Assembly: GCA_947172415.1 (NCBI GenBank)
Contig: OX359191.1
Coordinates: 2,790,001-2,854,000 of the forward strand
DNA length: 64,000 nucleotides
Source: Chondrosia reniformis
Lineage: Eukaryota > Porifera > Demospongiae > Chondrillida > Chondrillidae
Reading direction: 5' to 3'
Shown here: in pieces, positions 35,880-62,025 of the stretch
Position numbering within the stretch: the stretch's first letter is position 1
Layout: each line of letters opens with the position of its first letter
Position numbers and translations under genes: made by a program
Notes under the pieces: model-generated
Database searches by the model: none
What the model saw: the letters and a program-made list of their open reading frames with translations, nothing else
What the model was told of the DNA's origin: nothing

Positions 35880-38660
35880 TATATACATACACATGCAACT
35901 ACTACATACAACTTGTACCTACAACTATTAAATATAACAAATACTAGTCCATACAACTAATACATAGAACTAGTACAAACACCTAGTACATAAAATTAGA
36001 ACATACAACTAGTACACACAAGTTCTACATATAAGTAGTACAGATAACTAGAAACTAGTACATGCAACTATATAGTACATAAAAGGAGTACCTAAAACTC
36101 ATACATACAACTAGTAAGAACAACAAGACATTAGTACATACATCTACTTCATAGAAGGTGAACATAAAACTAAAACATAAAACTAGTATATACAACTAGT
36201 GCACAGCTAGTACATACAAATTATATAGACATACAACTAGTACATACAATTGGTACATAACTAGTACATGTAACAACTACATACAACTTGTACCTACAAC
36301 TATTAAATATAACTAATACTAGTCCATACATCTAGTACATAAAACCAGTACAAAAACCTAGTACATAAAATTAGTACATACAACTAGTACACACAACTAC
36401 TACAGATGACTAGTACATACAACTAGTACATAGAACTAGTACATACCTCTAGTACATAGAACAAATACATAAAAATAGTACATACATATGGTGCATACAA
36501 GTGGTACATAACTCGTACATACAACTAGTACATACAACTAGTACATATATTTATTACATACACATGTAACTAGAACATACAAAAAGCACATCAACTTGTA
36601 TATAGTACATGCAACTAGGATCTACCTAGTACCTAGGATAACTAGAACTAGAACCTACAACTAGTATATACAACTAGTACATACAACTAGTACACACACA
36701 TATAACTAGTATATATAAATAATACATGCACCTAGTACACACGACTAGGACATACAAGTAATATACACAACTAGTACACACAACCAGTGCAAACAACTAG
36801 TAAATACAACTAGCAACTAGTACATGCAACTAGTACATAGAAAGAGTACATAAAACTCATACATACAACTAGTAGGAACAACAAGAGACTAGGACATACA
36901 GCTAGTTTATAGAACGTCAACATAAAACTACCACATAAAACTAGTATATACAACTAGTACACAGCTAGTACAGACATGTAATATATACATAAAACTAGTA
37001 CATACAACTAGTACATATAACTATTACATTAAACTATTACACACAACCATTACATACAACTTGTACCTACAACTAGTAAATATAACTTCTACTAGTACAT
37101 ATATACAACTAGTAAAATCAACTAGTACATACAATTAGTACATACAAATAGTACAAACAGCTAGTACATTATACTTGTACCCACCTAGTAACCACTATAA
37201 CTAGTACTAGAACCTATAACTATTACATACACCTAGTACATACAACTAGTACATATACTTATTATATACACATATAACTAGTACACACAACTACTACATA
37301 AAACTAGTCCATACACATATAACTAGAACATATAAAGTACATATAACTAGTACTTTCAACTAGAACATAAAACTAGCACAAACAACTAGTACTTATAACT
37401 AGTAACTAGCAAAAACAATTAGTACATAACTAGTACATACAGCTGGTACATACAACGAGTACATAAAATTAGTACATACAAATATTACATTCAGCTAGAA
37501 AATTCAACTAGTACCTACAACTAGTACGTACAATTATTACCTACAACTAATAAATAAAACCAGTACTAGTACATATAACTAGTACATACAACTAGTACAT
37601 ACAATTAGCTACGAGTACATACAACCAGTACATACAACTAGCTACGAGTACATACAACTTGTACCTTAAACTAGTATATACAACTACTTCATAAAACTAG
37701 TACATAGAACGATTACTTACAACTAGTAAATACATCTACTACATACAACTAGTACATAAAACTAGTCCTACAAATAGTACATACAACTAGTACACAAACG
37801 TAGTCCATATAACTAGAACATACAACTAATACATACAGGTAGTACCTACAACTAGTTAATATTACCAGTACTAATACCTACAACTAGTGCCTCCAACTAA
37901 TACACACAACTAGTACATATAACTAGTATATACATATAGAACATACAACTAGAACTTACAACTAGTAACTAGTTCATACAACTAGTTCACACAACTAGTA
38001 CATCCCTAGTTGATACCACTAGTACATCCCTAGTTGATACCACTAGTACATACAACTAGCACAAACAACTAGTACAAAACTAGTACATACAACTAGTACA
38101 TACAAGTAGTACCTACAACATATTATTATCAGTAATAGTACCTACAACGATTTCATACAACTATTTCATACAATTAGTTCATACAACTAGTTAATACAAC
38201 TAGCACAAACAACTACTACTTAAATAGTACATACAACTAGTCCATTCAACAAGTACATGTTACTAGTTCATACAACTAGTAAATATAACTACTACAAAAA
38301 ACTAGTACCTTCAACTTGTACATAAAACTAGCAACGAGAACATACAACGAGTACATACAACTAGTATAAACAACTACTTCATTCAACTAGTCCATATAAC
38401 TAGTTCATACAACTAGTACACACAACTATTACATAAAACTAGCACATATGACTAGTGCATGCAACTGGTACAAACAACTAATACTTACAACTATTACATA
38501 CAACAAGTACATACAGTAAGTACATACAACTACTCTGAGTACATACATGTAGTACATACAATTTGTACCAACAACTAGTAACGAATACATAAAAACTATT
38601 ACATACAACTAATACATACAACTACTACCTACAACTGGAACATAAATGTAGTACTTACAA
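35880..38660 (+). repeat. 13-bp ACTAG minisatellite, forward; outer part of inverted duplication
   Basis: Forward units. From about 36165 onward the sequence matches, in reverse complement, the array at 58000-61936; for example a marker block at 36600-36665 (actaggatctacctagtacc) corresponds to 61445-61515. No genes seen. Confidence 0.93.
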
Positions 38661-38663
38661 CTA

Positions 38664-39224
38664 GCTATTAAATTTTCCAATACTTATAGGTATATTGATG
38701 ACCTTTTATGTATTAACAACAAGGATTTTGAACTGTCAAATAGTAATATTTACCCCAAAGAACTTATTCTTAAAAAGACAAATACCACCATTAAAAAATC
38801 CCCCTTTTTAGACTTAGATATAACCATTACTAACAATCAATTTATCACTAAAGTATATGATAAGCGAGAGGACTTTAACTTTGATATAGTAAATTTCCCC
38901 CATTTAGATAGTAATATTCCTAATACCCCAGCCTATGGTGTCTTTATTTCACAACTAATTAGGTATTCCAGAATATGTAGTGACTTCTCCAGTTTTCAGG
39001 CTAAAAGTTTGCAGTTATGCAATAGGCTTATTAAGCAGGGTTACAAATACTTTAAGCTAAAATCAACCTTTAAAACCTTCCTATCCCGGCAGCCTCTAGT
39101 TAGAATCAAGTATAAACAAAAAGTAGCTAGTATGCTTAAGGACTGTCTTGTGTTACCCCATATTGTGTTACCCCACCTCCAAAGAAATGTTACTACTAGA
39201 AGACCTAAGGGTAGACTTACGTAA
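38664..39224 (+). pseudogene. PLE reverse transcriptase, C-terminal fragment (copy B)
   Basis: An open remnant of about 186 codons in the RT frame. It runs from AIKFSNTYRYIDD through the C-terminus to TAA at 39222-39224. Motifs A and B are absent, so it is non-functional. It is nearly identical to the end of the full-length RT, which fits recent formation together with copy C. Confidence 0.85.
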
Positions 39225-39806: not shown

Positions 39807-40276
39807 ATGACAAGTACAAAGTATAGAGATAGGATACCGGCTGGGAGGTCGCCCGGGTTAACAAGCTCCCCGTCATTAGGTAAAGGTAGGGTGCCTGGTG
39901 ATGAAAAGTTAGCTAACTCTCCCCCATCTGTAGGTAGAGGGTGCCTACTGGTGGGCAAGCTAGCCCCTCACTAGTTAAGAAGTGTAGCAATAAGCGGTGT
40001 AAAACATGTCCCTCTTTAGTTACTGGCCCTACTTTTAAGAGTTCAGTTACTGGCAGGACCTATCAAGTCCGTAGCCCTTGTGGTCCCCTAGGATGCCAGA
40101 ATAGGAATGTTGTGTATCTTATTACTTGTAAACAATGTGATGTACAGTATGTAGGAGAAACCTCTCAGATGCTTAGGAGTAGAATGAACAACAATAGGAC
40201 TAGTACCAAAGGTTTAAGCCACTGTATCTTTACAATCACTTTAATTCTGATAACCATAGTTTTGATGATGCCTTGA
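39807..40276 (+). pseudogene. PLE N-terminal zinc-binding and GIY-YIG endonuclease region, frameshifted
   Basis: Coding starts at ATG 39807 in one frame (MTSTKYRDR onward) and must shift near 39936-39950 to the frame with KKCSNKRCKTCP (a C-x4-C-x2-C zinc-binding motif), then CGPLGC, then VVYLITC..C...YVGET..LRSRM, the GIY-YIG nuclease core (YVG standing for YIG). A second shift near 40221-40230 leads to LYNHFNSDNHSFDD, which continues into the RT frame. In related PLEs this is one continuous protein, so two single-base indels, or assembly errors, have broken it. The domain would nick target DNA for priming. Confidence 0.8.
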
Positions 40277-42726
40277 TTATGCCCATAGAACAGATACCTG
40301 AGACACCTAATTCTACTAGCCTCAGACTACTGAGAGAAGCGTTCTGGTACAAGGAACTCTGCTCTATTTACCCATATGGACTTAACGATAACATTAAAGG
40401 CGTTGGCAATATTTCGAAACTTAAAAAAGAAATCATCGTATGGAACCTTTTTAATCGCTTATCTCATAAAAGACCGCATCGACGCTCCAATCTAAAATCG
40501 ACAGGCAGTAGTAATAACGCTACCTTCGACCCTGAATGGCTCAAAGAACGACTACCACTTTACAAGAACGTGGGCTTTCTAGCCAAACTTAAACGCGATA
40601 CTTTTGCATTACAAGCTCAACACCTTCATCGTTTGTTAAACTTGGTACAATGTCTCATCGATACCCCAGAAACACCTTTTCCACTTAGACTTATGCTAAT
40701 GATTAAAGACGTTATTAAAGCACGCGCTTCAGCCAGCCTTCCGAAACAGCCAACGAAAACGACAAGTCCAGAAGGGTTTCTTAAAATCGTGTTTCATAAT
40801 AAAGGTGTAGAAAAAATAGGCCTCTCAGGTATCTTAAACCAAAAGTTAGTGTTAGAAACTGTCCCACCCTTTATACAAAACAAAGAGCCCCCATGTGTAG
40901 TATATAAGTATACCCAACCAATAGGACCTCAAATCTTTAACTTTTCACAAGCCTCTAAGTCAGATGTCTTTAGAAAACCAGAACCATGTGAGTGTCACAA
41001 GTCCCCCTTCATTTACAAGCCCCTAGGCCATGTTTTAACAGGTGACCTATGTATTGTTAGTAACCCAAAACTTAGAAAACTTCTTAAGAAAGGACCAAAA
41101 TTTAGAGAACCTAATAACTTTAATTGGGTAACTGCTTTAAAAATGTGTAAGGAAGGTCTTAGAAAATATAAGATTACCTGGGCCCGTAGAGAAAATGTAT
41201 CTATTTCTGTATTTAGTGAGTGGGAAAATACTGTACTTAAGAAAATTAATGATAGGATCTCTAAGCTGTCTAAATTGTATACCAAATCCTCAGTAGCCAA
41301 GAAGACCCTTACTTGCCCTAAAATTAAGAAATTCTTAGCAGACCTACATGATAAGTATGTTATAGCCCCTGCCGATAAGGCCTCTAATAATATAATATTT
41401 ATATGTAAGTCCTACTATAGACAAATTATTAATGAAGAACTAGGCAGTACCTCCACTTATGCTAAATGTACAGTAGAACCACAACAGTTAATTAGGAAAC
41501 ACATAGATTTCTTAAAACTAGAGAACTTAGAACCTAAACCAGACTGGTGTAACCTTCCCTCTTTTTACTGGATGCCTAAGCTACATAAGAACCCTTACAA
41601 CTACAGATTCATAGCTGCTTCTCACAAATGTACTACCAAACCCCTTTCTAGATTTCTAAATTCAGCACTCAGACTAATTCTCAAACATTTTAGAGAATAC
41701 TGCCTAGGTATATATAGGAATACTGGTGTTAATGCCTTTTGGATAGTAGAAAACTCACTAGAAGTCTTAGATAGTCTTAGGTCTATACCCGCTAGAAAAA
41801 CCCAGCTAGCTAGTTTTGATTTTTCTACATTATATACAGCGATCCCCCATAACCTACTTAAAGATAAGATTACTAACCTTATTCATAGTGCCTATACCTG
41901 TAGGAAGTCCCAATATATAGAAGTCTGTCAGGATAAAGCCTTTTGGTCTAACAATGTCTCCAATAAAGCAGTCACAGTTGTTCATTTAGTAGAGCTCTTT
42001 AATTACCTTATTGACAACATTTATGTATGTGTAGACGGTTCTGTATTTAAGCAATGTGTAGGTATCCCTATGGGTACTGACTGTGCCCCTGTAGTTGCTA
42101 ATCTTTTTCTGTTTGCCTATGAGTATGAGTTTATGAAAGGACTACTTAAGGATAACATCACCCTAGCTATTAAATTTTCCAATACTTATAGGTATATTGA
42201 TGACCTTTTATGTATTAACAACAAGGATTTTGAACTGTCAAATAGTGATATTTACCCCAAAGAACTTATTCTTAAAAAGACAAATACCACCATTAAAAAA
42301 TCCCCCTTTTTAGACTTAGATATAACCATTACTAACAATCAATTTATCACTAAAGTATATGATAAGCGAGAGGACTTTAACTTTGATATAGTAAATTTCC
42401 CCCATTTAGATAGTAATATTCCTAATACCCCAGCCTATGGTGTCTTTATTTCACAACTAATTAGGTATTCCAGAATATGTAGTGACTTCTCCAGTTTTCA
42501 GGCTAAAAGTTTGCAGTTATGCAATAGGCTTATTAAGCAGGGTTACAAATACTTTAAGCTAAAATCAACCTTTAAAACCTTCCTATCCCGGCAGCCTCTA
42601 GTTAGAATCAAGTATAAGCAAAAAGTAGCTAGTATGCTTAAGGACTGTCTTGTGTTACCCCATATTGTGTTACCCCACCTCCAAAGAAATGTTACTACTA
42701 GAAGACCTAAGGGTAGACTTACGTAA
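40273..42726 (+). CDS. PLE reverse transcriptase
   Basis: An open frame of 817 codons; in the intact element it would be fused to the upstream GIY-YIG part, so 40273 is a frame limit and not a true start. PLE RT motifs are in order: ADKASNN, FYWMPKLHKNP (41563), motif A FDFSTLYT (41815-41838), motif B GIPMGTDCAP (42061), catalytic YIDD (42193-42204), then KKSPFLDLDITI and the thumb-like C-terminus. PLE RTs are relatives of telomerase RT. The RT itself has no internal stop, so loss of function, if real, comes from the N-terminal frameshifts. Stop TAA is at 42724-42726. Confidence 0.9.
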   Translation: MIMPIEQIPETPNSTSLRLLREAFWYKELCSIYPYGLNDNIKGVGNISKLKKEIIVWNLFNRLSHKRPHRRSNLKSTGSSNNATFDPEWLKERLPLYKNVGFLAKLKRDTFALQAQHLHRLLNLVQCLIDTPETPFPLRLMLMIKDVIKARASASLPKQPTKTTSPEGFLKIVFHNKGVEKIGLSGILNQKLVLETVPPFIQNKEPPCVVYKYTQPIGPQIFNFSQASKSDVFRKPEPCECHKSPFIYKPLGHVLTGDLCIVSNPKLRKLLKKGPKFREPNNFNWVTALKMCKEGLRKYKITWARRENVSISVFSEWENTVLKKINDRISKLSKLYTKSSVAKKTLTCPKIKKFLADLHDKYVIAPADKASNNIIFICKSYYRQIINEELGSTSTYAKCTVEPQQLIRKHIDFLKLENLEPKPDWCNLPSFYWMPKLHKNPYNYRFIAASHKCTTKPLSRFLNSALRLILKHFREYCLGIYRNTGVNAFWIVENSLEVLDSLRSIPARKTQLASFDFSTLYTAIPHNLLKDKITNLIHSAYTCRKSQYIEVCQDKAFWSNNVSNKAVTVVHLVELFNYLIDNIYVCVDGSVFKQCVGIPMGTDCAPVVANLFLFAYEYEFMKGLLKDNITLAIKFSNTYRYIDDLLCINNKDFELSNSDIYPKELILKKTNTTIKKSPFLDLDITITNNQFITKVYDKREDFNFDIVNFPHLDSNIPNTPAYGVFISQLIRYSRICSDFSSFQAKSLQLCNRLIKQGYKYFKLKSTFKTFLSRQPLVRIKYKQKVASMLKDCLVLPHIVLPHLQRNVTTRRPKGRLT

Positions 42727-42978: not shown

Positions 42979-43037
42979 CTCCCAGGATCACTGATGAAGG
43001 GTGGAATTCCCAGAAACGGCTGTCTGACCCAGTGGAG
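42979..43037 (+). ncRNA. Type I hammerhead ribozyme (PLE copy C)
   Basis: Core CTGATGA at 42991-42997, GAAAC at 43013-43017, GTC at 43022-43024; predicted cleavage is after C43024. The core is identical to copies A and B; helix I differs only distally (CAGTGGAG). The distance between the B and C cleavage sites is 3502 nt, one element unit. Confidence 0.75.
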
Positions 43038-43179
43038 AAGAAGATGAAAGAAGGGAAAAGAAGGAAGAAAAGACTCCTGTATCTTCATCTAAAGCTCTCT
43101 TTAGGTTTAGTTCCCCTATAGGCTCTTTTTACAGAATAGGCATATAGCATGTAGGAAAATGGTATATTAGATTTTTCAT

Positions 43180-44436
43180 ACATATAGTACCTACAAATAT
43201 TAAATATACCTGGTACCAGTACATACAACTGGTACATACAACTAGTAAGTAAAACTAGCACTAGTACATACAACTAGAACATACAATTGGCACATACAGC
43301 TAGTAACGAGTACATATAACTAGTAAATACATCTAGTATATAAAACTAGTACATACAATTATTAATTACAAGTAATACATACAACTAATAACTAAACCTA
43401 GAAAATATAACTAGTAGTAGTACGTACAACTAGTATACACAACTAATACCTGCGACTAGTAAATATAACAAGTATTAGTACATACAACAAATACATAAAA
43501 CAGGTACACACAACTAGTAGATAGAACTAGTACATACAACTTGTACATTCACCTAGTACATACAACTAGTCCATTAACTAGTACATATACTTAATACATA
43601 CAACAAGTACATATAACTAGAAATATATCTATTATATACAACTAGTAACTAGTACATACAACTGGTACATAAAACTTGAACCAATTACTAGTAAATATAA
43701 CTAGTATTAGTACATACAACTAGTACATACAACAAGTAGATACAACCAGATTGTACAATCAGTAACTACATAAAACTAGAACCTACAACAAGGAAATGTA
43801 ACTAGTACCTACAACTAGCAAACATAACAAGTACTAGTATATAAATCTAGTGCACACAACTAATACATACACCTACTGCATGCAACTAGTACATGCAAGT
43901 AGTACATAAAATAATACATACAACTAGTGTATACAATTAGCACTTGCAACTAGTAGATACAACTAGTACACACAACTTAAAACTATAGCTAGAACTAGTA
44001 CATACAAATAGTACAAACAACTAGGATATACATACAACAAGTACATACAACTAGTACATACAACTAGAACTACAAATATTATATAGAACTAGTTAATAGA
44101 ATGAGAACATAAAACTAGTACATTCAACTAGTAACCAGTACATACAACTAATATATACGATTAGTGTGTAAACTAGTAAATATAACTTGTTCTTGTACAT
44201 ACAACTAGGGCATAAAACTAGTACATGCAAATAGAAAGGAGAAGTTACAAATAGTACATACAATTAACACATAGAACTAGTACATAGAAAGAGTACATAA
44301 AACTAGTATATACAACTAGTACTTACAACTAGTTCATATAACTAGTTCATATAACTAGTTCATACAACTAGTACATACAAGCAGAAACTAGTGCATACAA
44401 CTAGTACATACAACTAATACATAAAACTAGTACACA
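43180..44436 (+). repeat. 13-bp ACTAG minisatellite, forward
   Basis: Forward units from the PLE tail to the TA at 44437-44438. The first 120 bp (acatatagtacctacaaata onward) match the reverse complement of about 57850-57978, the sequence that follows the PLE site in the uninserted arm. Confidence 0.93.
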
Positions 44437-44449
44437 TATGGATTTGTTA

Positions 44450-44855
44450 TGCTCATTTTTTACATTCCACACCTCCAAATGTGTCAAAAAGTATACAGTA
44501 TATTGAATTTTTTTGTTATATTTCTACTTTAGAAATCATAGAACAGACAACTACAAATTTGGACAACGTATGGGGAATGTACAGGTCAAGAGGAACAAAA
44601 TGATACCTAATATGCAGCAAAACCGACCTTCGCCGTTTGTCCCTAGAGCGTTTTGTTTTTAGACTTGCTTGTATACAAATTTTATAGGGACTCCATTTTG
44701 AAATACAAATATATTCATTGACTATTATGTAATCCAAATTTGGACCGTAGACTTGTTATAACACACCCTTAGGGGTGTGAAATGGCACTCTTACTTTATT
44801 GGAAGTACAATTCTGGCTTGTCCATCGATTATTTTAGAGAGAGAGGTTGTTCATC
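44450..44855. other. Left-end non-coding region of the 6.26-kb insert
   Basis: About 400 bp upstream of the transposase-like gene. It contains a perfect 7-bp hairpin cacaccc-ttag-gggtgtg at 44763-44780 and a loosely related inverted motif ttccacacctcc near 44465. The 73-residue minus-strand open frame (44516-44737) has no recognisable features and is not called. Confidence 0.5.
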
Positions 44856-45858
44856 ATGGTCAGTAGTTTTGTTGTCGTCACCTTCATGGCTTTGATTGAC
44901 GTTTGTATTGCCGGAAGAGAAGAGGTTTTCTCTATAACCAAGTAAGATCAATCTGCACTTATATTTTAATCATTTCTTAGCGACTGAGATGCTAAAGACA
45001 TGCTATATACGATTTCCACAATCTTTATCTTTTTTCATACGGTAAGCGCTCTGTTTACCTATTATAGTTTTGATGTCGGTAAGCCGATCGATACCGGCGA
45101 TAATGTTATGTATAAGCAAGTCCAACGTAATATTAGGAATAAGTAAAGATAAACGACTGTAACCATCTTATATGTATTAGGATTAGGGTTATGTGGTCAA
45201 TGTAAAATTCATAATTACACATACAAGCAATTTTATGTGAAAGTTGTTTATTTCATTGTATATAGCCAAGAACTATTCAACCTGTTCAGCGGATTGCTTG
45301 TAGCTTCTTCTTTGAAAGTAATCCAGGATGATGTGATCCCAAAGTTGGCAAAATTCTTAGGACAAAACCTGGTAGTTTCTGATAAGTTAGCTCAAAGTAT
45401 ATACAACAAGTATGTATATATTAAAAAAAGCTCAAGGAGTTTCCTGGAGGAAGAAAAAGATGTAACTTTTGCATGACTGCCTGGGAGTTCACTGCTGAGG
45501 TTTCTGAGGAACCTTTAGGTAGAGTGGTACATCACCATTTTTGGTTTCATCCACGTTTATGTGTGTGTTTGTATGCATGTGTAGCTGTGAAAAAAAGGAA
45601 GCCATTGGAGGATTGCTGTCCATCACACCAGAAAAGATTGAAGACTAAAGAAAAGGAACACATACAGAAGTCACTTTCTTGGTTACGTGAGGCTGGCGTT
45701 CACCCACTTTCTTTGAAAGTGTATGATTCCAGGACCTGTAGAACTGAATATATCAACTTAAATTGAGATTTAGTACCTACAGATATTCCTAATGATGACC
45801 TATTGAGCCTTGCACTCTATGTAAAGGACAGACATGGAATTTCAGGTGGGTATATGAA

Positions 45859-45889
<31 letters not shown>

Positions 45890-47733
45890 TCATTGCGGTT
45901 TTTAATGTAAATAGGGGAAACTTAAAAAGATCTCTCAAGGCATTTCTCTGAAATGCCATCCTTGTATCAAATCAGGCAGAAAATTAAATTTTTAAACAAC
46001 AAATTTATTATCAAACCTACACCAAATGGAACTACAGGTGTTCAGCAAAGTCTGAGAGAGCGACTAGAATTCCGGATAATGCAATTACTCAGAAAGAGTG
46101 TTGTGGAAGCCCCGTTCAGGTGTGTTCCTTCTATACATATTATTGTTATTAGTGTGACGCATCTCCTCTTCTTTTGCATTTAGGTTACGTGGTTCCGTTA
46201 GGGTGAAGCTCACTGCTGATGGTACTAATGTAGGCAAAAGACTGCTTTGTGTTGTGTTTGCTTTCATCTTACTAGATGAATGTGATCAGTCTGTTGATGG
46301 CATACATCCATTAGCTCTTTTTAAGGAACCTGAGAAATATGTTTCCCTGAAGGTAGCTCTAGCTGATATAATAGAGGAAGTAGAGCAGACCAAGGAAGTG
46401 ACTGTCAATGAGCAAACTTTTAAGGTACGTATACAGTCATAAATATGGATATATATTCTGTGTGCATGTTTCTGTAATATACCAGTGTTATATACATATA
46501 TGTATCAATTATGTACGTATGTAGGTTGATTACTATCTGGGAGGTGACTGGAAGTTTTTAGCTATGGCTACAGGAATTAATGCTGCATGTAGCACATATG
46601 CGTGCATATGGTGCAAGTGTCCTGCTGACAAGCGTTGGGACACTTCCTTAGATTGGTCCTTGACTGATCATTCTTTGAATGCTAGGTATGTATGCATAAT
46701 TCAAATCTAACATGATTACAGGATTATTCTTGAATGGATATCTTATTCTCTGTTGATGCAGAACCATTGATGAAAATATTGCTCTATCCCAGTTGCCTAA
46801 GAGCAAAAAGAAGTTTAATGTCACCAACTCTCCTCTTTTCCCAACTATTCCCCTACACCATGTTGTCATCGACAACCTTCATTTGTTTTTGAGGATAGCT
46901 GATGTCCTTATGGATCTTTTAATTGAAGATCTCATGAGGGCAGATTCCATTGAGAAGGGAAAAAGGCTACAAAATGGATTTGATGCATCAAAGTACAAAC
47001 ACCTTCATGAATTTGAAAAATTTGTTCGCAGTCTTGGGATTCCAGGGTTTTCATTTTTTGTTGGGACTAACAAGATAATGAATTGGAGAACACTTACTGG
47101 TTAGTAACTACTAGCTTATACATGCAAGAAGGTAATAAAGAATGTTTCTTGATTCATACAGGTCCAGAGAAGTTGGTACTTTTTTCAAAGATAGACATCC
47201 CAAACCTTCTTCCTAATGTTAATCCCACAAACACAGCAACTATACAGTCGCTGTGGTGTCACTTCTTGGAAGTCAACAGGCTATTGTGTGGAACTAAGGA
47301 ATTGGATTTGTCTGTTCTAGAAACGAAGTGCACAAAATGTGTAGATACCTTTGTTTCCATCTATCAAACAAAAAGGGTCACTCCCTACATTCATGCTCTA
47401 CATTCACATGTAAGCCAGTTTCTTTACTTACATGGAAGCATAGCACCATTCTCCCAGCAGGCACTGGAAAAATATAATGACCAATTAACCAAGACATTCT
47501 TTAGGTAAGCATCATATGGATATATAATATAATCTGTGCATTGATTTTAAATTGAATCATATCCATACAGGACGTCCAATATGAGACAAACGGAAGCCTT
47601 AAAGCAGATACTTGAAAAAGAGAATAGGTTAGAAACTCTGATGGAAGAAGTGATCCCACCAGAAGTAAAGGAGTATGTTTGTAGCAATTGTGGAGTAAAA
47701 GGGCACAACAAGAGAACTTGCATGCACTTCTAG
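44856..47733 (+). pseudogene. Multi-exon DDE-transposase-like gene with in-frame stops
   Basis: Exons read from splice signals: 44856-44941, 45266 to about 45409, 45595-45845, 45915-46119, 46184-46424, 46525-46685, 46762-47099, 47162-47504, 47571-47733. From the fourth on, all junction phases agree. Candidate RNase-H catalytic residues: D in LTADGTNVG, D in GGDWKFLA, the C/D-x2-H motif as DNLH after a CIWCKC zinc pair, and E in QALEKYND. The C-terminus is a CCHC knuckle (CSNCGVKGHNKRTC). The family resembles uncharacterised transposase-like proteins of invertebrates; the superfamily is unsure. TGA (45764-45766) and TAA (45923-45925) interrupt otherwise continuous reading, and joining exons 2 and 3 is uncertain, so it is called a pseudogene. 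Confidence 0.65.
45861..45889. repeat. TA dinucleotide microsatellite in intron
   Basis: About 14 TA units inside the intron between the 45595-45845 and 45915-46119 exons of the transposase-like gene. Confidence 0.9.
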
Positions 47734-48615
47734 TTAAATAGTATGTCAGGCTTTTTTAAATTGTAAATATGTATCACTGACATTTGCATTTATGTAATGT
47801 TGAAAATTAATAACTTAATATTCACACAAACCTTCTTTACTCACCTTCAATTGTGAATGGCTTTTGTACTTGTTAGGCTTCTTGAGATGGACTAACATGG
47901 TGAGCTTCACTCCAACATAGGAATATGACAGTATAGTGTCCTTTAGTGGACATAAATCACTGTCACATCACTATATAATCTAAAGTGAACCTCACATGTT
48001 TGAAAAATTCACCTTTGCAAACCTATATACACTTAGAATAAAATTAAACGTACAATTCAAGGAAAAGAATGCAAAAGAATTTGACTATGCAGACACTGAA
48101 GTATCCATTCACGTAAACCTGCCTTACTCACCTTCAATTGTGTTCTATTGAATGGCTGTTGTCCTTGTAAGGCTTCTTGAGATAACTAGCCATTAGCACA
48201 TTGCCATTAAATTTAGCTATATTACCAGAGGCCCATGTTATATTGCACATGAAAGGACTCAGAGTTTAATATGAGTTGAACATAGAGTACATGCACTGTC
48301 GCACTCAATTGTGCAAAACTAGTAGTTATCATTTATAAATTCAATCATGCAATACAATATAATGGCACAATGAATACTGATCAAAGAGCTAGTTATTCAG
48401 TAACGATGATTTGCCTCAAGTCAACTTGATCATTAAATTCATATGGCCAATCCATCTAAGGACTTTGAGGGTCATATGAAAGTAAAAAAAGAGTTGAACA
48501 CAGAGAATTACAATGGTCATGGGTGTAAATATAATGACTACATATCAAGTGTAAGTGTATATTCTAACACAACAACAAGTGTTACAGTCTTAAGAATTAT
48601 CTGAAGAGTTTTAGT
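47734..48615. other. Intergenic region with an imperfect direct repeat
   Basis: Between the transposase-like and PGAM5-like genes. About 70 bp containing ctcaccttcaattgtg and ggcttcttgaga occurs at 47837-47890 and again at 48126-48183, about 290 bp apart. No coding exon recognised. Confidence 0.6.
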
Positions 48616-49430
48616 ATGGCAGAAGCAGTTCAAGAAGTTCCAGTTATTTCAAAAGTAGAAGCTGTATAGGCACGTTAAGTCTATAGACAGCAAATGAACA
48701 TATATACTAAGTAATGATACTTTTATGTCAACTTTTAGAAGCCACAGATTGACCAGGTTGTGCCTGAACCTTCAATAGAGCCCTTCACAGTGCTATTAAT
48801 TAGGCGTGGACAATGCAATACTTACAGCGGCAGATTAACTGAATTAGGTGAGGAACAGGCTATCAAGACAGGCCAATATCTATCAGGCTGCCTGGACACT
48901 AACAAAGTCATTTCTTGGGAGTGTTCACCACTACAAAGAGCTCAGGACACCAGTAGGAAAATTCAGAGATTCCTCAGCATAAGATTCCCAAGCTACACAA
49001 ATGAAAAGCTAAAAGAAGGCTCTCCTGTAAGTAAACCATATTCTCAACACTTAACACACATTTATATATTATCATTATCCTGAACAGAACAGTTCCTCAG
49101 ACTGAGACAGGTTTCAGTCTGCCTGGGAGGATTTAAAATCAGAGGGCTATGAGTCCAAAAATAAAGGGAAAATTAAAGTATTGGTGTGCCACAAAAATAT
49201 AATAAGGCATATTCTAAGCCAGTAAGTCTTACACTTTCAGACGTAAATATTGCCGTTACACATATTGCAACAATTGCATTTTTAGAGCTTCAAGACAGGA
49301 AGGTCACATCTGGCATTGTGGTATTGCTAAGATTCTATTCCATTGTAAGAACATAGGAATTAACAATAGCAGTTGTGAACATTTTAGCAGTAGGAAGCTA
49401 CAAACACATTATAACCATCACTTATACTAA
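48616..49430 (+). pseudogene. PGAM5-like histidine phosphatase, catalytic His replaced and one in-frame stop
   Basis: Four exons from splice signals: 48616-48663, 48739-49026, 49088-49221, 49286-49430 (stop TAA). The protein starts MAEAVQEVPV. It has FTVLLIRRGQ where the family has LIRHG, then RLTELGEEQA, CSPLQRAQDTS, an EKLKEGSP motif like the REGAP of PGAM5, and VCHKNIIRHIL, matching the second-histidine motif of PGAM5. PGAM5 is a phosphatase acting on protein Ser/Thr/His. Here the first catalytic His, the phospho-acceptor, is Arg. Exon 3 has TGA at 49103-49105 in the only frame that joins exons 2 and 4. Either change suggests a non-catalytic or dead copy. No mitochondrial leader is evident. 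Confidence 0.65.
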
Positions 49431-49707
49431 ATGTAACTTAGTACATCGTAAAATTAATTAATTGGCAGTGCAGGTGTTGTGCCATTTACCATGATAGTAC
49501 TGGCTACATCTTTGGATCTTAGTGGCTTTTAAAAAAACCATTGAAAATACATGGTCAGTCAATGACACTAAGCTAAACAATAAGAGTAGACACACAGCTG
49601 ATTGCACAAGTTTACAATATTGATCAGAAATTGTGATGGCTTTTATATAAAGAAGCTATATAAACAATGCAACCAATGACTTTGATAACCTCTGTATAAT
49701 AAAACAC

Positions 49708-50112
49708 TTAAAGTATACTTAATATGTCCTTCCACTTACAAGGTGGGCAGTCCATGCGTACAAATTTGAAAACCAAAAAGATACAACCAGGTGTTACAAC
49801 TTCAGGTTCAACAATGTCTTTATGTCTTGATAAATAAAATGTTACACTGTTAAGGTCACAGTAACAGAAGTCCCCAGCAACATTTAGTTTCCTTATATGC
49901 CATTGTTCCCCTAACAGGGGAACAAGATCCAGGTATCTTTTAATACCAAACCTTTCATGGCCAAAGTGAATGCCTAATGGCTTTCCAACATTACCTAGAC
50001 CACCTTTAAATAACAAAAAATCAAATGGTATTTCGATTCTACCCTCAATTTGGTGGGGGATAGGCTTTAAAGCAACTTTTATTCGCCACGCTAGCTCTTT
50101 TATGGGCATCAT
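49708..50112 (-). CDS. Terminal exon of a minus-strand gene, conserved unknown domain
   Basis: A 134-residue open frame starting MMPIKELAWRIK and ending at a stop at 49708. Recognisable landmarks are FDFLLFKGGLGNVGK, a GIKRYLDLVPLLGEQWH segment and NVAGDFCYCDL. The pattern (LLG..WH...N..GDFCY) resembles a domain found in uncharacterised invertebrate proteins that carry an upstream chromo/Tudor-like domain, recalled by pattern and not checked. The methionine may not be the true start: the weak acceptor aaaag at about 50100 would join this exon in frame to the one at 50271-50398. Confidence 0.5.
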   Translation of the reverse strand: MMPIKELAWRIKVALKPIPHQIEGRIEIPFDFLLFKGGLGNVGKPLGIHFGHERFGIKRYLDLVPLLGEQWHIRKLNVAGDFCYCDLNSVTFYLSRHKDIVEPEVVTPGCIFLVFKFVRMDCPPCKWKDILSIL

Positions 50113-50270
50113 AGGGCTTCAAATACGACACACCTAAATCTACTGCCTGTACAGAACCTACACACAAATTCCGGACTGAAGGATAAACCTACACACAACA
50201 AAACTACGTACAAGTTAACGAACGCCGGGAAGATGCCAAAATTGACCATTTAGCTAACACTAATACATAC

Positions 50271-50398
50271 TGCAATTTAGTACTGAAACATCCTCTTTGT
50301 TCCTCCATTCGTCGTATGCGTCATCGTATCCAACATAATGAATCCTGACTTCTCCAGTGTCAGGATTTCGTCTGGTAATTGTTATGTTATACAATCCT
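50271..50398 (-). CDS. Exon with chromo/Tudor-knot-like motif (same minus-strand gene)
   Basis: The minus-strand reading is LYNITITRRNPDTGEV followed by HYVGYDDAYDEWRNKEDV. The HYxGYDxxYDEW pattern is typical of Tudor-knot/MBT/chromo-barrel folds that bind chromatin or RNA. The exon ends at a good donor, GTATGT, on the minus strand (50270 downward). A likely first exon lies just upstream with ATG at 50500-50502 (MNRYNFRERREPKK), but three in-frame stops separate it from this exon, so an undetected splice or decay is needed. Confidence 0.5.
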
Positions 50399-50698
50399 TA
50401 TTTTGATGCCTTCGGTGGCAACTTCTTTCAACTTCTTCAGATGATTGAAGGCGCTTCTGATTTCTTGGGCTCCCTGCGCTCTCTAAAATTATAGCGATTC
50501 ATCTTAACTTATCGGTAAACAAACTTTCACGGTAAACTAAACTTTGTTGCACCTTCGCAATCACGTAAAAGCTTTACGTATTTCGTAATGAATATAATTA
50601 TAGCATCATAATGAATATCATTAAGGAATGCGTGAATACAATTATACCACCTTCTTCTAATTTAGCACCCTACACGAAACGAGCCAAACAAACTCATA

Positions 50699-53600
50699 TT
50701 TACAGCTGGTACATACAACTAGTACATACACCTCTATAGTATATTCAACTAGTACACAGAACTAGTAAGAAGTACATATAACAAGTACATACAACTAGTA
50801 ATTACAACTATTACATTAAACTAGTACATATAACTAGTGCATGCAACCAGTACACACAACTAGTACATACAACTAATACATACAACTAGTACATACAGTT
50901 ACTACACACAACTAGTTATGAGTACATAAATGTAGTACATACAATTAGTACAAACAACAATTTACGAGTACATAAAAACTAATGCATACAACTAATACAT
51001 ACAACTACTATATACAACTAGAATATAAATCTAGTACATACAACTAGGACATACATATAGTAGATACAAATACTAAATATACCTAGTACCAGTACATACA
51101 AATACTACAAACAACTAGTATCTATGACTAGTAAATAAAACTGGTATTAGTACATACAACTAAAAGGCACAACTGTCACATTCAGCTAGTAATGTGTACA
51201 TATAACTAGTAAATACATCTAGTATATACAACTAGTCCATACAACTATTAATTACAAGTAAGACATACACCTACTACATAAAACCAGTACATACACATAT
51301 AACTAGTACATATAAGTAGTACTTACAACTACTAAATACAACTAGTACATACAAGTGGTACATAACTAGTACATACAATTAGTACATATAATTAGTACAT
51401 ACAAGTAGTACAAACAGATAGTACATACAACTTGTACTTACCTAGTACTAATTATAACTAGTACTATAAAGAACCTATAACTATTACATACAGCCAGAAC
51501 ATATATACAACTAGTGCATACAAGTAGTACTTACAACTAGTACATATAACTAATGCATACAACTAGTACATACACATAGTAAGTACATGTAGTACGTACA
51601 ACTACTACACACAACTAGTACATAAAACTAGTACACACAACTAGTACCTACAAATAGTATATACAACTTGTGTCTAGTACATGCAACTAGGACCTACCTA
51701 GTACCTAGTATAACTAGGACTAGAACCTACAACCAGTACATACAACTAGTACATATAACAAGAACATACAGCTAGTATATACACCTAGTACACACAACTA
51801 CTACATATAACTAGTACATACACATATACCTAGTACATATAAATAGTACATACAACTAGTACATACAACTACTACACACAACTAGTACATATAACTAGTA
51901 CACACAATTACTACATTAAACTAGTGCATTCACAGAAAACTAGCACATATAAATAGTATATACAACTAGAACATAAACTAGAACCTACAAGTGGTACATA
52001 AAACTAGTACATACAACTAGAAGCTACTTAGTACATAGTACAACTGATACTAGAACCTACAACTAGTATCTACACCTAGTCATACAACTAGTATCGAGTA
52101 CATACAACTAGTACCAACAACTAGTACATACAAATAGTCCATACAACTAGTACATACAACTAGTACATACAACTAGTACCTACTTAGTACCTATTATAAC
52201 TAGTACTAGAGCATACAACTAGTACTTACTACTAGTACATACAGTTAATACATATAAATAGTGCATACAACAAGTACATACAACAATAACACACAATTAA
52301 TACATACAAATAGTATATACAACTTGTGTCTAGTACATATAACTAAAATCTCCCTAGTACCTAGTATAACTAGTACTAGAACCTATAACTTGTATATACA
52401 ACTAGTACATATAACTACTTTATACAACTAGTATATACATGTAGTACACACAACTACTACATATAACTAGCAAATACACATATACATAGTACATATAAAT
52501 AGTACATACAACTAGTACATACAACTAGTACATATATACAACTAGTACATAAAACTTGAATATACAATTAGTATATAGAACTAGTTCAAACGATTAGTAC
52601 ATACAACTAGTACCTACCTAATACTTTGTTATAACTTGTACTTGAACATACAACTAGTACACACAACCAGTAAATATAACTAGTACACACAATTACTACA
52701 TTAAACTAGTACATATAAATACTATATACAACTACAACATAACTAGAGCATACAATTAGTACATAGAACTAGTACAAACAACTAGTACATACAACTAGTA
52801 CAAACAACTAGTACATATAACTAGTACATACAACTAGTACATACAACTTGTATTGAGTACATAAAACTAGTAAAAACAACTAGTACATACAACTAGTGCG
52901 TACAACTAGAACCAACCTAGTACCTAGTATAAACTAGTACTAGAACTTACAACTAATACTTACAACTAGTATATACAACTAGTCCATATAAATGGTGCAT
53001 ACAACTAGTACATACAACTAGTACATATAACTAGTACAAACAACTAGTATATACGCCTAGTTCACGCAACTACTAAAGATAACTAGTACATACGCATATA
53101 TAGATAGTACATATAAATAGTATATACAACTAGTACATACAACTAGTACGTACACAAATTACACTCATCTTGTATGTAAAACTACTACATACAACTTGTA
53201 TCCAGTAAATATAACTAGGATCTACCTAGTACCTTGTATAACTACTACTAGAACTTACAACTAGAGCATAGAACTAGTACATACAACGAATACATGCAAC
53301 TAGTACCTACAACTAGAAAGTATAACTAGTACATACAGTTATTACACCCAACTAGAACATACAACTAGTACATATAACTCGTACATACAACTAGTACATG
53401 CAACTAGTACAAACAATTAGAACTTACAACTAGTACACACATAATACATACAATTAGTACGTGCAACTAGAACATACACCTAGTTACTAGACAAACAACT
53501 AGTACATACAACTAGTTACTACAAATAGTAAATAGAGTTAGTACATACAATAATTAGACACAACGTGAACATATAACTAGTACATTCACATATAACTAGT

Positions 53601-54704
53601 ATATATAAATAGTACATACACCCAGTACATACAACTAGGACACACAAGTAATATTTACAACTAGTACACACAACCAGTGCATACAACCAGTGCATACAAC
53701 TAGTACATACAACTAGAAACTAGTACATGCAACTAGTACATAGAAAGAGTACATAAAACTCATGCATACAACTAGTACGAACAATAAGACATTAGTACAC
53801 ACAGCTAGCTCATAGAATGTGAACATAAAACTACCACATAAAACTAGTAATTATACAACTAGTACTAACCTAGTACATGCAAGTAATATATACATACAAC
53901 TAGTACATACAATTGGTACATAACTAGTCCATGCAACTAGTACAAACAATTTGTTTATACAACTACTACATGCAACTACTACATACAACTTGTACCTACA
54001 ACTATTATATATAACTAATACTAGTACATAAAACTAGTCCATAAACCTAGTCCATAAAATTTGTACATACAACTAGTACACACAAGTACTAGATATAACT
54101 AGTACATACAACTAGTACATATAACGAGTACATAAACCAAGTATAGACAACTAGGACATATAACTAGTACATAAACTGTTACACACAACTACTACATATA
54201 ACTTGTACCTACAATTATAGATATAACTTGTTCTAGTACATACAACTAGTAAATCAACTAGTACATACAATCAGTAATTACAAATAGAACAAACAGCTAG
54301 TACATACAACTTGTACCCACCTAGTAACCACTATAACTAGCACTAGAACCTATAACTATTCAATACAGCTAGTATATACAACTAGTACATATACTTATTA
54401 CATACACATATAACTAGTACACACAACTACTACATAAAACTAGTCCATACACAGGTAACTAGTACATATAAATAGTATATACAACTAGAACATAAACTAG
54501 AACATACAACTAGTACATTGAACTAGTACATACAACTAGAACCTATCTAGTACCTAGTACAACTAGTACTAGAACCTACAACTAGTACTTACAACTAGTA
54601 AATACAACGAGTATCGAGTACATACAACTAGTACATACAACTAGTACTAACAAGTAGTACATACAACTAGTCCATATAACTAGTACATACAATTAGTACA
54701 TACA
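50699..54704 (+). repeat. 13-bp ACTAG minisatellite, forward; inner part and spacer of inverted duplication
   Basis: Forward units. About 50880-53440 matches the reverse complement of 54705-56920 (for example 52000-52060 with 55770-55830, and 53180-53240 with 54965-55035). About 53440-54704 is the unpaired spacer and instead shows direct similarity to 36700-37500. No genes seen. Confidence 0.93.
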
Positions 54705-57700
54705 GTTGTATGTACTAGTTGTATGTACTGGTACTAGGTATATTTAATATTTGTAGGTACTATATGTATGTACTAGTTGTAAGTTCTAATTGTTTGTACT
54801 AGTTGCATGTACTAGTTGTATGTACGAGTTATATGTACTAGTTGTAAGTTCTAGTTGGGTGTAATAACTGTATGTACTAGTTATACTTTCTAGTTGTAGG
54901 TACTAGTTGCATGTATTAGTTGTATGTACTAGTTCTATGCTCTAGTTGTAAGTTCTAGTAGTAGTTATACAAGGTACTAGGTAGATCCTAGTTATATTTA
55001 CTGGATACAAGTTGTATGTAGTAGTTTTACATACAAGATGAGTGTAATTTGTGTACGTACTAGTTGTATGTACTAGTTGTATATACTATTTATATGCACT
55101 ATGTATATGCGTATGTACTAGTTATCTTTAGTAATTGTGTGAACTAGGCGTATATACTAGTTGTTTGTACTAGTTATATGTACTAGTTGTATGTACTAGT
55201 TGTACGCACTAGTTGTATGTACTAGTTGTTTTTACTAGTTTTATGTACTCAATACAAGTTGTATGTACTAGTTGTATGTACTAGTTGTTTGTACTAGTTC
55301 TATGTACTAATTGTATGTTCTAGTTATGTTGTAGTTGTATATAGTATTTATATGTAATAGTTTAATGTAGTAATTGTGTGTACTAGTTATATTTACTGGT
55401 TGTGTGAACTAGTTGTATGTTCAAGTACAAGTTATAACAAAGTATTAGGTAGGTACTAGTTGTATGTACTAATCGTTTGAACTAGTTCTATATACTAATT
55501 GTATATTCAAGTTTTATGTACTAGTTGTATATATGTACTAGTTGTATGTACTATTTATATGTACTATGTATATGTGTATGTGCAAGTTATATGTAGTAGT
55601 TGTGTGTACTACATGTATAAACTAGTTGTATAAAGTAGTTATATGTACTAGTTGTATGGACTAGTTGTATGTACTAGTTGTATGGACAATTTGTATGTAC
55701 TAGTTGTTTGTACTAGTTGTATGTACTCGATACTAGTTGTATGACTAGGTGTAGATACTAGTTGTAGGTTCTAGTACCAGTTGTACTACGTACTAAGTAG
55801 CTTCTAGTTGTATGTACTAGTTTTATGTACCACTTGTAGGTTCTAGTTTATGTTCTAGTTGTATATACTATTTATATGCGCTAGTTTTCTTTGAATGCAC
55901 TAGCTTAATGTAGTAATTGTGTGTACTAGTTATATGTACTAGTTGTGTGTAGTAGTTGTATGTACTAGTTGTATGTACTATTTATATGTACTAGGTATAT
56001 GTGTATGTACTAGTTATATGTAGTAGTTGTGTGTACTAGGTGTATATACTAGCTGTATGTTCTTGTTATATGTACTAGTTGTATGTACTGGTTGTAGGTT
56101 CTAGTCCTAGTTATACTAGGTACTAGGTAGGTCCTAGTTGCATGTACTAGACACAAGTTGTATGTACTATTTGTAGGTACTAGTTGTGTGTACTAGTTTT
56201 ATGTACTAGTTGTGTGTAGTAGTTGTACGTACTACATGTACTTACTATGTGTATGTACTAGTTGTATGCATTAGTTATATGTACTAGTTGTAAGTACTAC
56301 TTGTATGCACTAGTTGTATATATGTTCTGGCTGTATGTAATAGTTATAGGTTCTTTATAGTACTAGTTATAATTAGTACTAGGTAAGTACAAGTTGTATG
56401 TACTATCTGTTTGTACTACTTGTATGTACTAATTATATGTACTAATTGTATGTACTAGTTATGTACCACTTGTATGTACTAGTTGTATTTAGTAGTTGTA
56501 AGTACTACTTATATGTACTAGTTATATGTGTATGTACTGGTTTTATGTAGTAGGTGTATGTCTTACTTGTAATTAATAGTTGTATGGACTAGTTGTATAT
56601 ACTAGATGTATTTACTAGTTATATGTACACATTACTAGCTGAATGTGACAGTTGTACGTTTTAGTTGTATGGACTAATACTAGTTTTATTTACTAGTCAT
56701 AGATACTAGTTGTTTGTAGTATTTGTATGTACTGGTACTAGGTATATTTAGTATTTGTATCTACTATATGTATGTACTAGTTGTATGTACTAGATTTATG
56801 TTCTAGTTGTATGTAGTAGTTGTATGTATTAGTTGTATGCATTAGTTTATATGTACTCGTAAATTGTTGTTTGTACTAATTGTATGTACTACATTTATGT
56901 ACTCATAAATAGTTGTGTGTAGTAACTGTATGTACTAGTTGTATGTATTAGTTATATGTACTAGTTGTATGCACTAGTTTCTGCTTGTATGTACTTGTTA
57001 TATGAACTAGTTGTAAGTACTAGTTGTACATACTAGTTTTATGTACTCATTCTATGTACTAGTTCTATGTGTAAATTGTATGTACTATTTGTAACTTCTC
57101 CTTTCTATTTGCATGTACTAGTTTTATGCCCTAGTTGTATGTACAAGAACAAGTTATATTTACTTATTTTCGCACTAATCGTATATATTAGTTTTATGTA
57201 CTGGTTACTAGTTGAATGTACTAGTTTTATGTTCTCATTCTATTAACTAGTTCTATATAATATTTGTAGTTCTAGTTGTATGTACTAGTTGTGTGTACTA
57301 GATTTATATACTAGTACTAGTTATGTTTGCTAGTTGTAGGTACTAGTTACATTTCCTTGTTGTAGGTTCTAGTTTTATGTAGTTACTGATTGTACAATTT
57401 AGTTGTATCTACTTGTTGTATGTACTAGTTGTATGTACTAATACTAGTTATATTTACTTGTAATTGGTTCAAGTTTTATGTACCAGTTGTATGTACTAGT
57501 TACTAGTTGTATATAATAGATATATTTTCTAGTTATATGTACTTGTTGTATGTATTAAGTATATGTACTAGTTAATGGACTAGTTGTATGTACTAGGTGA
57601 ATGTACTAGTTGTATGTACTAGTTCTATCTACTAGTTGTGTGTACTTGTTTTATGTATTTGTTGTATGTACTAATACTTGTTATATTTACTAGTCGCAGG

Positions 57701-60700
57701 TATTAGTTGTGTATACTAGTTGTATGTACTACTACTAGTTATATTTTCTAGGTTTAGTTATTAGTTGTATGTATTACTTGTAATTAATAATTGTATATAC
57801 TAGTTTTATATACTAGATGTATTTACTAGTTATATGTACTCGTTAGTAGCTGTATGTGCCAATTGTATGTTCTAGTTGTATGTACTAGTGCTAGTTTTAC
57901 TTACTAGTCAAAGGTACTAGTTGAATGTACCAGTTGTATGTACTGGTACCAGGTATATTTAATATTTGTAGGTACTATATGTATGTACTAGTTGTAAGTA
58001 CTAGATTTATGTTCCAGTTGTAGGTAGTAGTTGTATGTATTAGTTGTATGTAATAGTTTTTATGTACTCGTTACTAGTTGTTGGTACAAATTGTATGTAC
58101 TACATGTATGTACTCAGAAGTAGTTGTATGTACTTACTGTATATACTTGTAATAGTTGTAAGTATTAGTTGTTTGTACTAGTTGCATGCACTAGTCATAT
58201 GTACTAGTTTTATGTAATAGTTGTGTGTACTAGTTGTATGTACTAATTATATGTACTAATTGTATGTAATAGTTGTATGTACTAGTTGTATGTACTAGTT
58301 GCATATAAAAGTTGTATGTACTAGTATTAGGGACTACTTGTATGTACTCCTTACTAGTTGTATGTACTACTTGTAAGGAGTAGTTGCATGTACATACTGG
58401 TTGAATGTACTAGTTGTATAAAGTAGTCATATGTACTAGTTATATGTACTTGTTGTATGTACTAGGTATATATACTAGTCATATATATCTAATAGTTATA
58501 TACTACTTGTATGTACTAGTTGTATGTACTATTTTTATGTACTACCTGTTATAACTGATTGTATGTAATTTACTTGTTGTATGTACCAGTACTAGTTACA
58601 TTTTCACGTTGAAGAGCCTAAATGTACGTGCTAGTTGTCTATCTGAATATACTAGTTGTATGTTCTAGTTATATTTACTAGTTATATGAACTAGTTATTT
58701 TTACTAGGTGTATGGACTAGTAGTATGTACTAGTATATACTAGGTTTATTTACCAGTTGTAGGTACAGGTTATATGTACAAGTTTATGTAATAGTTGTTT
58801 GTACTGATTGTATGTACTAGTTGTATGTACTAGTTGAAAGTACCAAATACGTCGTAGTTGTTTATGAACTTTTTATTGACTAGTTGTATGAACTAGTTGT
58901 ATGAACTAGTTGGAGGTACTATTACTGGTAATATTAAAGAGTTGTAGGTACTATTACTGGTAATATTAAGGAGTTGTAGGTACTACTTGAATGTACTAGT
59001 TATATGCACTAGTTATATTTACTAGTTATATGTACAGGTATATATACTAGCTATATATATATACTAGTTTTGTACTACTTCTATGTAGTATTTGAAATAC
59101 TAGTTATATGTACTAGTTGTATGTTCTATTTGTATGTATTATTTGCATGTACTAGTTATATTTACTAGTTGTAGGTTTCAGTTGTGTGTACTAGTTGTAT
59201 GAACTGATTGTATGTAATTTACTAGTTGTATATACTGGTACAAGTTATATTTACTCTTTGAGTATACTAAATGTACGTACAAGTTATTTGAACTAGTTTT
59301 ATGGACTACTTGAATGTACTAGTTGTATGTAGTAGTTATATTTACTATTTGTATGAACTAGTTTTATGTACTAGTTGTATGGACTAGTTGTATGTACTAG
59401 TACTAGGTTGATTTACTAGTTGTATGTACAAATTGTATGTAGAGATTTAATGTAATAGTTTTATATACTAATTGTATGTTCTAGTTGTATGTACTAGTTG
59501 TATATACTAGTTGTGTTGTATATAGTTGTTTGTGCTAGTTGTATTAACTAGTTGTATGCACTCTTTTTGTACTAGTTGTTTGAAGGATGTACTATCGCCA
59601 AGATTGTATGAACTAGTTGTATTAACTAGTTGTAGGTACTTTGATTGGTTTTATTAACTAGTTTTAGGTACTACTTGTATGCACTAGTTATATGTACTAG
59701 TTGTATGCACTACTTACTAATTATATGTCCTAGTTGTTTGTTCTGGTTGTATGTGCTAGTTGTATGTACCAGTAATATGTACTAGTTGTGTGTACTAGTT
59801 GTAGGTACTAGTGGTAGTTCTAGTTTTATGTACTAGTTGTAGATCCTAGTTGTATATACTAGTTGTAAGTAATAGTTATATGTACTAGTTGAATGAAGTA
59901 GTTGTTTATACTAGTTGTATGTACTCGTTGTGTGTTCTCGTTGCTAGTTTTATATAAAAGTTGAAGGTACTAGTTGTTTTTAGTAGTTATATTTACTAGT
60001 TGTATGAACTAGTAACATGTACTAGTTGAATGGACTAGTTGTATGTACTATTTAAGTAGTAGTTGTTTGTGCTAGTTGTATTAACTAGTTGTATACACTA
60101 TTTTTGAACTAGTTGTATGAACTAATTGTATGAAATAGTTGTATGAAATCGTTGTAGGTACTATTACTGATAATAATATGTTGTAGGTACTACTTGTATG
60201 TACTAGTTGTATGTACTAGTTGTATGTACTAGTTTTGTACTAGTTGTTTGTGCTAGTTGTATGTACTAGTGGTATCAACTAGGGATGTACTAGTTGTATG
60301 AACTAGTTGTATGAACTAGTTACTAGTTGTAAGTTCTAGTTGTAGGACTAGTTTTATGTACTAGTTGTATGTAGTAGATGTATTTACTAGTTGTAAGTAA
60401 TTGTTCTATGTACTAGTTTTATGAAGTAGTTGTATATACTAGTTTAAGGTACAAGTTGTATGTACTCGTAGCTAGTTGTATGTACTGGTTGTATGTACTC
60501 GTAGCTAATTGTATGTACTAGTTGTATGTACTAGTTATATGTACTAGTACTGGTTTTATTTATTAGTTGTAGGTAATAATTGTACGTACTAGTTGTAGGT
60601 ACTAGTTGAATTTTCTAGCTGAATGTAATATTTGTATGTACTAATTTTATGTACTCGTTGTATGTACCAGCTGTATGTACTAGTTATGTACTAATTGTTT

Positions 60701-61936: not shown

Positions 61937-62025
61937 ACCATTTTGTAACTTGCCCACAAGGACAAAAAAGGCCAAGGCCTTTATATACGTATGTTATGTC
62001 CCTTGTGTACAAGTTACAAAATGGT
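61937..62025. repeat. 89-bp foldback at left end of the 1.9-kb element
   Basis: Arms accattttgtaacttg...aaggaca and its complement, about 28 bp each with a few mismatches. Between them lie aaaaggccaaggcctttata and a short AT spacer. It could be a small nested MITE or the outer tip of the larger element. Confidence 0.6.

Follow-up and report, generated by a model that had tools for sequence, protein, structure and literature searches.

A probable CMCT-clade DNA transposon with a histidine phosphatase gene and a chromatin-reader-like gene in satellite DNA of the sponge Chondrosia reniformis

The vertebrate RAG recombinase descends from a transposon that had a partner gene in convergent orientation, and in many forms this partner has a histone-reading domain. 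As to target sites, Chapaev elements make 4-bp duplications, and Spy is a transposon with a 0-bp duplication. RAG1 is placed in the CMCT clade, together with CACTA/EnSpm, Mirage, Chapaev and Transib. The clade is defined by C2C and H(3-4)H motifs between the second D and the E of the transposase, its termini are mostly 5'-CA..TG and its target duplications measure 2-5 bp (PMC12730594). ESTA is a member recognized through HHpred similarity to RAG1, and some members carry extra enzyme genes, such as TET/JBP in fungi (PMC12730594). In invertebrate RAG1L proteins, a CCGHC motif is named in the C-terminal tail (PMC7204232). This tail is reported to matter for end binding in lancelet, and a RAG1L-type tail is reported from one Transib subgroup (PMC9435367). 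Here, we describe a 6.27-kb element in a 64,000-nucleotide stretch of the Chondrosia reniformis genome (C3 bases 2790001-2854000, hereafter the window). With a probability of about 70%, it is a copy, now dead, of a DNA transposon of the cut-and-paste type with a CMCT-clade DDE transposase, from a lineage with three genes, encoding the transposase, a histidine phosphatase and a reader-like protein. Most likely, the clade is a known one, and the lineage, with its unusual set of genes, is new.

The genome assembly (117.37 Mb) comprises 14 chromosomes and the mitochondrion (PMC12181767), and the 15 contigs searched had 117379552 bases. A 13-bp satellite (ACTAGTACATACA), present in both orientations, fills much of the window, at approximately 1-22100, 36000-39000, 43000-44434 and 50701-62000. 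Its 17-mer CTAGTACATACAACTAG occurred 16267 + 17118 times in the genome (33385 in total; control 0), and 126 times in the window outside 44001-51000. As a rough estimate from the 17-mer density, the satellite may make up one tenth of the genome; it may also be centromeric. The element is a non-satellite block, with satellite outside it on the left (43000-44434) and on the right (50701-54000), so the original prediction of a block standing alone in satellite was borne out. Its limits, 44435 and 50700 (copy A, plus strand), were chosen because homology to other copies ends there, on the left at 44435 (copies D and E) and on the right at 50699-50700 (copies F, G, H, I, J, M3a and M3b). The limits first proposed, 44439-50696, were each 4 bases too far in.

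Copies were collected by searching the genome at the DNA level with four segments of the block (all counts are lower bounds) and were then aligned jointly. Three near-complete copies were found: A, B (C3:4.593-4.599 Mb, minus strand, 95.5% identity across the full length) and C (C4:4.369-4.374 Mb, 98.2-98.6% identity, with an internal deletion). Partial copies were D, E, F, G, H, I, J, M3a and M3b. Shared flanks identified duplicates, namely C with A, F with G and H (right flank), and M3a with M3b. The flanks of the last pair, two inverted right ends 12.6 kb apart (C3:2458503-2458855 and C3:2471079-2471437), match as well, which marks an inverted duplication and rules out that they are the two ends of one element. 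Copy B is probably an insertion separate from A, because their flanks had no common 22-mer on a matching line within 1.5 kb on each side; fast satellite turnover is the alternative. Apart from the duplicated segments, the copies have common ends and different flanks. This block is a genuinely mobile element, a bounded unit at several unrelated places. This supports the predicted DNA transposon with a transposase, a chromo-like gene and a phosphatase inside one unit. The three genes did not behave as single-copy host genes, but were present in several copies with common ends. The empty site claimed for the inverted arm held in part: there is no element at the matching place, but approximately 150-200 bp of the satellite next to the insertion point is missing too, which rules out the arm as a clean empty site. 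Two stretches between the transposase and phosphatase genes, 47906-48187 and 48408-48519, recur at many genome places, some of them near related ends on C14 and C13.

Both ends of the element start with CATATGRRTTTGTT, and the copies share the termini 5'-CATATGRRTTTGTT...GCTCATTT, which read CATATGRR. A 24-base terminal pattern was built from both ends. The left terminal inverted repeat of the window copy (CATATGGATTTGTTATGCTCATTT, 44435-44458, plus strand) had no mismatches to it, and the right one (AATATGAGTTTGTTTGGCTCGTTT, 50677-50700, minus strand) had two. The terminal hexamer CATATG was found at all five left ends (A, B, C, D and E) and at nine of the ten right ends read (A, B, C, F, G, H, I, J, M3a and M3b), the right end of copy A having one base changed. 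Searched at ≤3 mismatches, the pattern gave 25 genome matches (10 exact), compared with 1 for a backwards-read control; the copies behind the pattern match by construction. The short related inverted ends were present as predicted at both termini, and the genome search for further copies of them, set as a test beforehand, showed that they are not unique. Ends at C4:608 kb, C14:3368 kb and C2:40 kb had neither a DNA match to the window element nor a clear second end. In viral contigs, 35 matches to the pattern and no relatives were found.

The TA on both sides of the block had been read as a target duplication. It is instead the middle of CATATG, and a TA duplication is ruled out by the conserved CA before and TG after it. 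Copies A and B lie in the context ...CTAGTACA / TACA(G,A)CT..., with which a 4-bp duplication (TACA) and a 0-bp duplication are both compatible. Flanks joined without a duplication gave normal satellite, with CTAGTACATACAACTAG occurring 126 times in the window vs. once for the 4-bp version, and AGTACATACAGCT, in a second test, 17 times vs. 0. Because the joined flanks restore the satellite register, the sequence favors no duplication over 4-bp TACA, from only two sites, both in repeat. A 5-bp duplication is ruled out by GTACA vs. TACAG (A) and TACAA (B). It is also unlikely that CATATG is a duplicated palindromic target, as the ACATATGTAC that this requires at A and B is absent from the window. 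Ends on C14, C13, C7 and C9 have flanks that are alike and were uninformative about duplication. Flanks were read for eight insertion groups (A/C, B, F/G/H, D, E, I, J and M3a/b), a count that leaves out further terminal-pattern ends (10 of the 25 matches, with 2-3 mismatches). Three of the eight were in satellite. This excess over a rough tenth of the genome could come from targeting or from survival, and gives weak support for targeting.

The transposase gene (44856-47733, plus strand) was modeled with nine exons, by GT-AG splicing that joins one open frame and by copy alignment. Exons 1-5 are at 44856-44941, 45266-45518, 45585-45845, 45930-46119 and 46184-46424, the 5' exons being uncertain, and exons 6-9 are at 46525-46685, 46762-47099, 47162-47504 and 47571-47733. 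The catalytic part (46184-47733) holds the first D in ADGT, followed by D-x18-CxxC, DxxH and Hx4H-x19-E. A C-terminal zinc knuckle, CX2CX3GHX4C (CCGHC, 47680-47721), was read from the translation, corresponds to the CCGHC motif of the invertebrate RAG1L tail and matched a Pfam zinc knuckle below the cut-off (E 0.014). These features agree with the original prediction of an intron-rich, plus-strand gene with D, D, DxxH, E and zinc motifs. From the second D onward, copy A, paralogue F and mouse RAG1 had the motifs at identical fixed spacing, a pattern that 0 of 20000 shuffled versions of A contained. The D-x18-CxxC and H-x19-E spacing is presumably also that of CACTA transposases, so that it supports the clade and not RAG1 alone.

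Profile searches against DDE transposase families gave weak scores to RAG1. For copy A, RAG1 was the only transposase family returned by Pfam (E 0.016, under the cut-off). An hhalign comparison of the family with mouse RAG1 scored 34.6 (P 0.0006; maximum of 200 shuffles 28.1, reversed 15.9), with two histidines and the E in register. In a single-sequence PDB search, RAG1 was matched in two collinear weak blocks (E 0.55), level with apolipoprotein (0.56). The scale for such weak scores is given by a mouse RAG1 fragment, which found the solved Transib transposase with the same stretch at E 0.0057. A RAG1 family search across the genome gave 0 matches, as did its controls. No CACTA-type family matched A or F in Pfam at E values up to 10, HMMER filters concealing most matches above E 0.1. 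Similar uncharacterized proteins presumably occur in cnidarians. The window copy is dead: its transposase has a stop (45764) and, around 45423-45430, a frame change, its phosphatase has an altered catalytic residue, and stops lie inside its reader-like gene.

A histidine phosphatase gene with several exons lies at 48616-49430 (plus strand). Pfam His_Phos_1 matched one exon of copy A (E 1.4e-6, 28.5 bits) and paralogue F (E 5.4e-9, 36.4 bits), with a cut-off of 21.7; a PDB search gave 0 matches at E 0.01. Of the PGAM5-like phosphatase predicted between the other genes, the His_Phos_1 gene and its place stood, but nothing found points to PGAM5 in particular. The catalytic histidine is present in B, C, D and F, and copy A has arginine (RRG for RHG). 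Between A and F, silent (pS) and amino acid-changing (pN) divergence were 0.81 and 0.28 for the transposase (235 codons; pN/pS 0.34, bootstrap 0.28-0.42) and 0.71 and 0.22 for the phosphatase (133 codons; pN/pS 0.31, bootstrap 0.23-0.42). This shows that the two genes diverged together between two subfamilies, both under purifying selection; silent sites are near saturation, so the ages of the two divergences are comparable only roughly. The phosphatase appears to be no recent passenger, because its divergence is close to that of the transposase and under purifying selection. Phosphatase matches were found at six of the nine loci with transposase matches (A, B, C, D, F and G, four lineages minus duplicates), the loci without one being C2:5.025, C6:3.638 and C12:1.488 Mb. 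The genome has at least 35 phosphatase matches, in element copies or scattered (e.g. C1:3.08-3.94 Mb and C2:6.716 Mb). Among them was no clear single-copy host parent, and the proposed host-derived cargo found no support.

The chromatin-reader-like gene (49708-50502, minus strand) is tail to tail with the transposase and phosphatase genes and is broken in copy A. Its MBT/Tudor/chromo-like first segment (50260-50397) corroborates the predicted minus-strand chromo/Tudor-like gene; the C-terminal part (49708-50118) lies outside the segment with assigned matches. For the first segment, PDB matches were L3MBTL3 (whole-sequence E 0.0054, no stretch passing alone) and ARID4A (0.14). Pfam matched the exon alone to MBT and Chromo (E 0.046) and gave no match for the longer F protein. 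Neither a kelch propeller nor a PHD finger was matched in the gene by Pfam or PDB. Between A and F, the gene had a pS of 0.03 (156 codons; pN/pS 0.8, from few changes), and the right 1.3 kb (window 49443-50699 vs. C2:5373007-5374296) was 91% identical between the two subfamilies. The subfamilies have probably swapped this right part, the ends being exchanged as modules, because the reader-like gene is nearly alike in A and F, whereas the transposase and phosphatase are saturated. Next to related ends, weak relatives of the reader-like gene were present on C9 (E 5e-4), C14 (0.0013 and 0.33) and C7 (0.019). On C9 (L069 1508-2428), the exon relative continues in one open frame into GIY-YIG (E 2.7e-5), either through nested elements or a fusion, and on C7 (L068 1532-1834) a related exon is present without GIY-YIG.

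The transposase has the D, D and E of the CMCT clade with C(2)C and H(3-4)H between the second D and the E, and CATATG is a 5'-CA..TG end. With the clade and ESTA, the element thus shares motifs and ends, and some members likewise have extra enzyme genes (PMC12730594). It differs in the CATATG form of the ends, in its other extra genes, in its sponge host and in that a 2-5 bp duplication is unproven. It is doubtful that the element belongs, as an ordinary member with extra genes, to another of the described CMCT superfamilies (e.g. Chapaev or ESTA). The motif set common to the whole clade (PMC12730594) and the 4-bp TACA repeat beside A and B would suit such a member, but the CACTA-type Pfam search described above was negative and the joined flanks (126 to 1, 17 to 0) favor no duplication. 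Only slightly less doubtful is a true Transib/RAG-like transposon in which the reader-like gene replaced a RAG2-like partner. RAG1 is the nearest profile, and RAG-like transposons (RAG1L-RAG2L, e.g. ProtoRAG) share with the sponge element RAG1-spaced catalytic and zinc motifs, the CCGHC tail and a second gene, tail to tail with the first, that may encode a histone-reader domain (PMC7204232). Transib likewise has a RAG1-related transposase, with a RAG1L-type tail in one subgroup (PMC9435367), but one gene vs. three in the sponge element. The sponge element, in contrast to these, has CATATGRR termini and no CAC-type heptamer, no 5-bp duplication at A and B, no kelch or PHD found in its second gene, and an extra phosphatase. 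We did not file it as Transib/RAG-like, because the terminal sequence and the missing 5-bp duplication do not fit. For a 0-bp duplication, itself unproven here, Spy/Harbinger relatives give a precedent (PMC12730594), but their transposase is of another group. Among the titles and abstract beginnings listed by searches of open-licence literature, none was about this element.

A duplicated host gene cluster would account for the introns in all three genes and for C, G, H, M3a and M3b, which arose by segmental duplication. The identical ends with unrelated flanks at B, D, E, I and J already largely refute it, and we regard it as highly improbable. Separate from the question of superfamily is whether the phosphatase is a chance-captured passenger with no role for the transposon. 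The lost catalytic histidine in the window copy, a locus with transposase and reader-like matches and no phosphatase match (C2:5.024-5.026 Mb), and similar phosphatase matches apart from transposase matches agree with this. The same position in two deep subfamilies and the low pN/pS make it unlikely. Several points weigh against the three-gene CMCT transposon that we prefer. The Pfam score for RAG1 with copy A was 13.8 bits vs. a cut-off of 25, and the search of paralogue F returned no RAG1 or other transposase family. A three-row profile search of PDB ranked RAG1 (E 0.16) below apolipoprotein (0.072), and the hhalign probability was just 28.6. In copies F and G, the part of the catalytic exon that holds the first D is missing. 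A target duplication of 2-5 bp, as in the clade, is unproven, and the 4-bp candidate breaks the satellite register. Structure prediction gave no confident model for the reader-like protein, with a mean predicted local distance difference test score (pLDDT) of 36.0 for the C-terminal part (three sequences) and 50.8 for the first exon (one sequence), and we infer the roles of this gene and of the phosphatase.

In a three-gene CMCT transposon, the RAG1-related transposase would bind the CATATG ends, perhaps through its CCGHC knuckle as in the lancelet RAG1-like protein, and would cut and paste the element. The reader-like protein could tie the complex or its insertion to chromatin, and the phosphatase may act on some host protein by which the element is held in check. 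More tentatively, the lineage could be a separate, RAG1-related one at superfamily level, with its own tail-to-tail reader partner, a long-kept phosphatase and insertion without target duplication, a parallel to RAG1-RAG2 outside the known RAG-like transposons. A RAG1-related sponge transposon with the same layout and a different reader-like partner would raise the question whether pairs of this kind go back to a common ancestor or evolved more than once. A phosphatase that selection has maintained on a transposon is likewise an unusual accessory gene, comparable to TET/JBP of fungal transposons.

Two other open frames were found in the window. A 999-codon frame at 28474-31473, inside another AT-rich repeat array, matched the reverse transcriptase family RVT_1 (E 2.4e-19) and is apparently an intact non-LTR-like element. 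The other, of 817 codons (40273-42726), resembles a reverse transcriptase of the Penelope-like type and is, at its start, almost identical to the GIY-YIG-bearing frame on C9 (L069).

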